Part shown: in pieces, positions 14,286 to 16,603 of the stretch | Layout of the letters: every line of letters begins with the position of its first letter | Numbering within the stretch: position 1 is the first letter of the stretch | Source: Chloroflexota bacterium | GTDB taxonomy: Bacteria; Chloroflexota; Limnocylindria; Limnocylindrales; CSP1-4 | Assembly (NCBI GenBank): GCA_029240655.1 | Contig: JARDZW010000006.1 | Coordinates: forward strand, 1 to 37,863 | Reading direction: 5' to 3' | Length of the DNA stretch: 37,863 bases | Program-made: the position numbers and the translations under genes | Notes under the pieces: model-generated | Told to the model about the DNA's origin: nothing | Databases searched by the model: none | Seen by the model: the letters and a program-made list of their open reading frames with translations, nothing else

Positions 14286-16364
14286 TCATGTGGGGGCGAG
14301 CGCCGACTGGGCCGGTGGCGGTGGCGGGGTGTCGGGATGCAATCGGACGCGCCGTAGGAGTTGGGCGTTGGCCGCCACGATGATCGTCGAGAGACTCATC
14401 GCGATGGCACCAACGGCCATCGGCAGGTCGATGCCCCACGGGACGAAGATCCCCATGGCGACGGGGATCGCCACGAGGTTGTAGCCGGTCGCCCAGACGA
14501 GGTTCTGGACCATCTTGTTGTAGGTCGCCCGCGACAGCTCGATCGCGGCCACGACGTCGCGCGGGTCACTGCGGACAAGCACGATGCCGGCAGACTCGAC
14601 GGCCACGTCGGTACCAGCGCCGATGGCGATGCCGACATCGGCCGTCGCCAGCGCCGGCGCGTCGTTCACACCATCGCCGACCATGGCGACCTTCCGGCCG
14701 CCCTCCTGGAAGCGCTTGACCGCGGCGGCCTTGTCTGCCGGAAGGACCTGCGCCGCGACCTCGTCGATCCCGAGGCGTCGCGCGACCGAGTCGGCCACAG
14801 CCTGGCTGTCGCCGGTGATCATCGCCACCTTGATGCCGGCAGCGTGGAGGCCATCGATCGCCTCCTTCGATTCCGGGCGGATCTCGTCTTCGGCGGCGAC
14901 GATGCCAGCTACGGCGCCATCCACGACGACGTGGAGGACGGTCCGTCCGTGCTGGTCCCAGTCCGCCGCCTGGGCATGCGGCGCGAGACCAAGTTCCTGA
15001 AGCAACCGGGGCCCGCCAACGAGAACGTCATGACCGTGGACCGTGGCGCGCGCACCGCGACCGGCCAGCGCCTCGAAGTCGGAGGCCTGCCGTGTCTCGA
15101 CACCGCGTTGCTTCGCGCCATGGACGATCGCGCGCGCGAGCGGATGCTCCGAGTCGGCCTCGACCGAGGCCGCGAGGCCGAGGACGCGCTCGATGTCCAT
15201 GGAGCCTGCCGCGACCTCGACGAGGACGGGCTCGCCCTTGGTCAGCGTCCCGGTCTTGTCGAAGATCACGGTATTGACCGTCCGGGTCCGCTCGAGTGCG
15301 AGTCGATCCTTGACCAGCAGCCCGTTCTGGGCGCCGAGGGAAGTGGAGATGGCGATGACGAGCGGGATCGCCAGACCGAGGGCGTGGGGGCAGGCGATCA
15401 CGAGCACCGTCGCCGTGCGGACGAGCGCCCCTTCGGGGTCGCCCAAGAGCCACCACCCGACCAGGGTGACGGCGCCGGCGGCGAGGGCCACGTAGAACAG
15501 GATCGCGGCCGCCCGGTCAGCCAGGGCCTGCGCCCGAGACGCCGACGCCTGAGCCTGCGCGACCATACGCATGATCCCGGACAGGGCCGTCTGGTCCCCG
15601 GTCGCCGTGACTTTCACGCGCAGCGACCCGCCCTCGGCGACGGTGCCGGCGATGACGACATCGCCGGCCTGCTTCGCGACTGACCGCGACTCGCCGGTGA
15701 TCATCGATTCGTCGACGTCGGCGGTGCCGTCGACGATGTCTCCATCGGCCGGGACTCGAGCGCCCGGCCGCACAAGCACGATCTCATCCACTTGCAGGGC
15801 GCTGATGGGCACTTCCTCGATGCCATCGGCGGTGACTCGCTCAGCAGTGTCTGGGAGGAGCGCGGCAAGGGCCGAGAGAGCGCCCTGTGCCTGGGCGATG
15901 GAGCGCATTTCGAGCCAGTGGCCCAGCAGCATGATCGTGATCAGAGTGGCCAGCTCCCACCAGATCTCGACCTCGAAGAAGCCGAGCGTCCCGGCCCACG
16001 AGGTCACGAAGGCCACGATGATCGCCAGCGAGATGAGGGTCATCATGCCCGGCTTGCGGTCGGCCAACTCGCCCTGGGCTCCGCGGAGGAAGACCATCCC
16101 GCCGTAGAAGAAGATGATCGTCCCGAGGACCGCCGGCACGTACTCGATGCCCGGGATCGTCGGGATCGTGTAGCCGAACCACTCCTGGACGTCGTGGCTG
16201 AGCAGGATGACCGGGATCGTCAATGCGAGGCTCAGCCAGAACTTGTCGCGGAACATTGCCACTGAGTGGCCGGCGTGCCGGTCGTGCCCGGCCGCGTGAT
16301 CCTCGCGAGTCGCCGCCGAACGTGGCGCGGGTCCGTGTTCCTGATGGTGGTCTGCGTGATCCAC
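14286..16364 (-). CDS. copB: CopB-type (CPH) heavy-metal P1B ATPase
   Basis: A metal-exporting P-type ATPase, 692 aa from the GTG at 16364. It has a His-rich N-terminus ([11 protein letters not shown] and [11 protein letters not shown]) and no CxxC domain, about eight membrane helices, and the actuator TGES. The membrane metal motif is ACPHALGL, i.e. CPH instead of CPC, near residue 325. The phosphorylation site is DKTGTLT near 367, with HP in SEHPLARA and the hinge [13 protein letters not shown] marks the CopB subgroup (Cu+/Cu2+ or silver). An ATG at 16406 (706 aa) is in frame, but the RcnR-like box lies inside that extension. GTG 16364 has AGGGGA 6-11 nt upstream, so I prefer it. Confidence 0.92.
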
Positions 16365-16381
16365 GGCGGTCCCCTGCTCTG

Positions 16382-16398
16382 ATACTCCCCCCCAGTAT
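16382..16398. promoter_or_regulatory. RcnR/CsoR-type operator (TACT-G6-N-AGTA)
   Basis: The minus strand reads ATACT-GGGGGGG-AGTAT, an inverted repeat flanking a seven-G tract. It exactly fits TACT-G6-N-AGTA, the published recognition pattern of E. coli RcnR (CsoR/RcnR family). It lies 18 bp before the GTG start of the P-type ATPase gene. CATACT inside it could act as a -10, so binding would repress. No CsoR/RcnR gene is visible in the window. Confidence 0.7.
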
Positions 16399-16603
16399 GC
16401 GCCCATCGTCAAGACCGCGTGCCGTCGCTCAAGGTCGGACGATGGCCGGCCCCAGAAGCCACCGGAAGGACAGGCGACAGACGCGATCGTCCGGCCGTTT
16501 TCGATCGCCCGACGCAAGGTCGCGGCATGCGCTTTCGCTGCGGCCGCAATCGCCCGGACGCGACGATTGGCGGGCCAAGTCATGAAGCAAGGAGGATCGA
16601 CTG

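Follow-up and report, generated by a model that had tools for sequence, protein, structure and literature searches.

Does a palindrome that matches the operator of the Escherichia coli nickel/cobalt regulator RcnR, and that lies ahead of a gene for a copper-type ATPase, answer to nickel, cobalt or copper? We address this question for a 17-base palindrome in the window (the whole stretch of Chloroflexota DNA analysed here, 37,863 nucleotides). It occupies positions 16382-16398 and reads ATACTCCCCCCCAGTAT on the plus strand and ATACTGGGGGGGAGTAT on the minus strand, i.e., TACT-G7-AGTA with symmetric outer A/T, which confirms the exact fit to the RcnR pattern TACT-G6-N-AGTA described in a previous sequence-only reading of this DNA. 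Judged by the box, its genomic companions and the regulator encoded in the genome, it is very probably the operator of the copper repressor CsoR in front of a copper-export pump of the CopB type. The features of the locus are as follows.

14286..16364, minus strand: CopB-type P1B ATPase, 692 aa from GTG 16364 (profile searches, PDB matches, translation motifs).
16362..16364, minus strand: proposed start codon GTG (orthologue alignment).
16370..16375, minus strand: Shine-Dalgarno-like AGGGGA, 5 nt before GTG 16364 (sequence).
16382..16398, minus strand: predicted CsoR-type operator, ATACTGGGGGGGAGTAT, with the TAC-X9-GTA register and a single G7 tract (sequence, genome-wide sites, PWM).
16407..16412, minus strand: possible -35 element TTGACG, 8 bp upstream of the operator (sequence).

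The ATPase gave a Pfam E1-E2_ATPase match, scored above the cut-off for both TIGR01511 and TIGR01525, and returned copper ATPases as PDB matches, among them copper-exporting P-type ATPase B. Its translation has a His-rich N-terminus, CPH in TM6 and MSxST in TM8, features that place it with the CopB-type (P1B-3) pumps and predict transport of Cu/Ag. The most likely translation start is GTG 16364 and not ATG 16406, as the sequence-only reading had proposed. This start is well supported because orthologue starts align there (the Met of L006, L007, L008 and L112, and in L111 a Leu that may reflect a TTG start) and AGGGGA lies 5 nt ahead of it. In L112 and L111, an in-frame stop or the contig limit is found 3 and 15 nt upstream of the aligned start, and no Shine-Dalgarno-like motif could be read ahead of ATG 16406. 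GTG 16364 follows the box at a distance of 17 bases. The box had also been described as lying inside the longer of two reading frames; it is indeed within the frame from ATG 16406, but the longest open frame begins at ATG 16583, and the extra N-terminal part which this adds has no counterpart in the orthologues. A TTGAC[GCT] element upstream of the box is also found in several copB relatives. The left arm of the box (NATACY) was considered as a general -10 element with a -35 at 17-18 bp and rejected, as averaging over 58 promoters gave no distinct peak and the window departs from the arrangement, although by eye L030, L031, L194, L046 and L047 conform to it.

In the 2.75 Mb genome, the window box is the sole match to the TACTGGGGGGNAGTA pattern at up to 2 mismatches, itself with 0 mismatches, whereas the reversed-pattern control gave 3+2 matches at the same threshold; about 0.015 exact TACT-G6-N-AGTA sites are expected from base composition. 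The search for further sites of this exact form, which had been suggested as a check, returned none besides the window box, and a tandem pair as in the RcnR system was not found in the genome. The looser pattern ATACY-N7-RGTAT gave five sites, against about 1.2 expected and 0 for the reversed control, and these lie upstream of csoR, copA, copB (the window), trxB and dnaA. The csoR box, ATACCCCCCAGGAGTAT (L001:1399-1415), abuts the ATG start codon, and the box before the CopA-type ATPase gene reads ATACTCCCCAGGAGTAT, so that csoR and the copper exporters of one genome carry the same box. Using a PWM trained on relatives with the window site left out, the window box scored 23.9. The earlier assignment to a CsoR/RcnR-family operator ahead of a CPH-type ATPase is supported. 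As a side observation, AGGAG within the csoR box may double as a ribosome-binding site.

Among 37 family genomes, summing a table of per-genome counts gave about 184 ATACY-N7-RGTAT sites versus 5 reversed-control sites. With the own genome included, the box is present in 23 aligned csoR loci, 24 copA loci and 11 loci of copB orthologues. At csoR and the copper ATPases the relatives' boxes are mostly of the split type TACTCCC-N-GGGAGTA, and the family forms range from this type via TACTCTGGGGGAGTA and TACTAGGGGGGAGTA to TACTGGGGGGGAGTA of the window; a single tract of 6 or more occurs in 5 of the 58 aligned Cu/csoR boxes. Some Actinobacteria and Thermomicrobiales orthologues have TACC-type boxes, and for most orthologues from Acidobacteria, Gemmatimonadota and other groups no such box was found in the 600 bp ahead of the ATPase. 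Further observations in the relatives concern other genes. At L014, L036, L052, L076, L077 and L193 the box precedes a Cys-rich protein (CPCGC...GCCCG or CCCG) with a C-terminal YHS domain, possibly a copper-handling protein. A TraR/DksA-type zinc-finger gene with the box, apparently divergent from a YHS-type gene, is found at L199, L205, L209, L213 and L221, and L217 and L073 have two tandem boxes upstream of copA, about 25 bp apart.

As no CsoR/RcnR gene is adjacent to the pump, the sequence-only reading had placed the regulator elsewhere and depended on the genome holding such a homologue. Both expectations were borne out: no PF02583 (CsoR/RcnR family) gene was found within the window, and a single one was found in the genome (71.5% complete), on contig C25. 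A second PF02583 gene could be absent from the assembly at this completeness; nearly all relatives have one strong PF02583 member, and some also have weaker paralogues. The C25 protein has the Cys56-His81-Cys85 ligands, the second-shell residues Tyr55 and Glu101 and the RLSR form of the RLxR motif. The Cys-His-Cys ligands, second-shell Tyr and Glu and RLxR are invariant in all 38 aligned proteins. The closest PDB chain is 4adz, a copper-sensitive operon repressor. In RcnR the last ligand position is a His, and the metal is better predicted when second-shell residues are considered than from the ligands by themselves (PMC4235346), while RLxR versus RASK distinguishes CsoR from RcnR (PMC3902906). 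By its residues, the C25 protein carries the copper-CsoR fingerprint, and an RcnR-type PF02583 protein (His at the Z position, RASK) was not found in this 71.5% complete genome, the C25 protein having Cys at Z and RLSR. Copper is likely, although not certain, to be the sensed metal, since the nickel sensor InrS keeps C-H-C ligands as well (PMC4235346).

From these sequence features we infer that CsoR binds and represses and that copper is the effector, and propose the following mechanism. CsoR made from contig C25 would regulate a set comprising csoR (autoregulation), copA, copB, trxB and dnaA. Apo-CsoR tetramers on the TAC/GTA dyads of the window box would keep the CopB-type copper/silver-export ATPase gene downstream from being transcribed, and Cu(I) bound at Cys56-His81-Cys85 would free CsoR from the operator, switching the pump on; csoR and copA would likewise be repressed by apo-CsoR and relieved by Cu(I).

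The remaining two sites of the set precede trxB and dnaA. The box of trxB (thioredoxin reductase; own genome G000:C35:32536-32552, L272 and L291) is found in 16 of 18 family loci (L260-L277), where it covers the -35 position, with an extended -10 such as TGGTACGAT about 8 nt further downstream. The dnaA box (own genome G000:C122:39869-39885, L230 and L293) is present, counting family loci with the upstream region present (loci include L231-L246, L257 and L295-L298), in 22 of 22 family loci; it is also found in 7 of 11 loci of a sister family with small genomes, and in 0 of 23 loci of other families of the class, some of which have short upstream regions. In the family alignment of dnaA the box carries 1.59 bits per column versus 0.34 and 0.61 in its flanks, and most genomes have TTGCGR-N17/18-TGCTATYCT after it, a conserved promoter with an extended -10. 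With duplicates of the own locus removed, 14 family genomes have 12 bp between the box and the TTG of the -35, and one has 13 bp; a spacing of 23 bp is seen in seven family genomes and six sister-family genomes. The 11 bp between the two main spacings amount to about one helical turn. With these spacings the centre of the box would fall near -57 or -68, as is typical for class I activators. DnaA boxes of the TTWTNCACA type were not found near the box in the dnaA promoter, and we are therefore without evidence that it is part of oriC. A phylum-wide search for box-N12-23-TTGC recovered nearly all family genomes; elsewhere most hits have cores other than G/C tracts and AT-rich genomes also match the control pattern, so that the search does not establish this architecture beyond the order.

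The conserved dnaA box suggests a copper-linked input to replication initiation, in which CsoR is the putative regulator. A tentative and rather doubtful extension is that, in this Chloroflexota order, apo-CsoR activates dnaA through the box at its 12 or 23 bp spacing from the -35, so that copper overload would lower DnaA, raise the efflux pumps and alter trxB, thereby acting as a copper checkpoint on replication. Alternatively, CsoR may act at the copper genes and a different factor with a similar palindrome at dnaA and trxB, an explanation to which we give a little under an even chance. Neither dnaA nor trxB is a classical copper gene, the dnaA box lies upstream of the -35 in an activator-like position while the csoR and copA boxes lie near the start codon, and some genomes of family f2 have csoR without a dnaA box. 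On the other hand, the same mixture of T/C choices is seen in the boxes of each of the five genes, ATACTCCCCAGGAGTAT stands before both dnaA and copA, and there is one strong CsoR per genome. Co-loss of csoR and the dnaA box across genomes gave no clean correlation. We know of no second factor for the dnaA/trxB palindrome. The alternative concerns dnaA and trxB only and does not compete with the assignment of the window box to CsoR.

The window box itself could instead be bound by an RcnR/InrS/DmeR-type Ni/Co sensor, with the ATPase exporting nickel or cobalt, as the sequence-only reading hinted when it named RcnR and cautioned that the metal may not be copper. A single G tract characterises type 1 (RcnR) sites and two tracts type 2 (CsoR) sites, and TAC-X9-GTA is common to CsoR sites (PMC3902906). 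The window box has the TAC-X9-GTA inverted repeat around a G/C tract, and this tract is a single C7/G7 and not the two tracts of type 2; it resembles type 1, which a 2013 source ties to RcnR and not to CsoR. The exact TACT-G6-N-AGTA fit and the C-H-C ligands of InrS speak for a Ni/Co sensor. However, we consider this very improbable: the sole PF02583 protein found resembles CsoR in its ligands, its second shell and its RLxR motif, the ATPase is of the CPH/Cu type, the orthologous copB promoters mostly have split, CsoR-type boxes, and, of the four other sites in the genome, those with a metal-related target precede copA and csoR, with a Ni/Co exporter behind none of the five. An RcnR identity does not agree with the features of regulator and ATPase. 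TACT-G6-N-AGTA, as counted from the sequences, shares the TAC-X9-GTA register, and the intergradation of the family forms within this one register, together with the 5 of 58 single-tract boxes, points to the window box being a type-1-like variant within the CsoR regulon, whose letters by themselves give no pointer to nickel or cobalt. As most of the relatives' boxes are split, we file it as a variant and not as a typical type 2 site. A chance palindrome in the coding sequence of a longer ATPase from ATG 16406 or 16583, for which the frame open as far upstream as ATG 16583 might be cited, is less credible still and is disfavoured by the genome-wide and reversed-pattern controls, with five sites against 0, every one at a conserved target, and with orthologues that start at or near GTG 16364 and have their boxes upstream of the matched protein.

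These results indicate that an operator can fit the Ni/Co RcnR consensus of E. coli and yet be part of a regulon of the copper sensor CsoR. Boxes of types 1 and 2 intergrade within one register, and metal specificity is therefore to be read from regulator and regulon and not from one box. The same scan reveals that the promoters of dnaA and trxB have a conserved CsoR-type box; should CsoR bind there, copper status would feed into replication initiation, and the literature searches for CsoR with dnaA found no such description.

Among known systems, the type 2 CsoR operators of Streptomyces lividans (csoR, copZA1, copZA2) resemble the present set in their TAC-X9-GTA dyads and G/C tracts, in having a copper ATPase and csoR as targets, and in an RLxR CsoR protein. 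In contrast to them, the window box has an unbroken G7 tract and TACT/AGTA arms, and boxes of the present genome also precede trxB and dnaA. The type 1 operator of E. coli RcnR is matched exactly in sequence; the RcnR system has tandem sites and a regulator with C-H-H plus N-terminal His ligands and RASK, whereas here a single box is paired with a protein of CsoR fingerprint. The type 1 operator of Mesorhizobium NreA (G7 tract) shares with the window box a single G-rich tract between inverted repeats and repression at the promoter, as proposed for the window box, but NreA is a nickel regulator of a nickel exporter and its repeats are TATCC/GGATA (PMC12724321). The CopB-type (P1B-3) ATPases of Archaeoglobus and Enterococcus share CPH, MSxST and the His-rich N-terminus with the window ATPase, which differs from them in that a CsoR-type operator is predicted to control it; for CopB of E. 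hirae the regulator is CopY.
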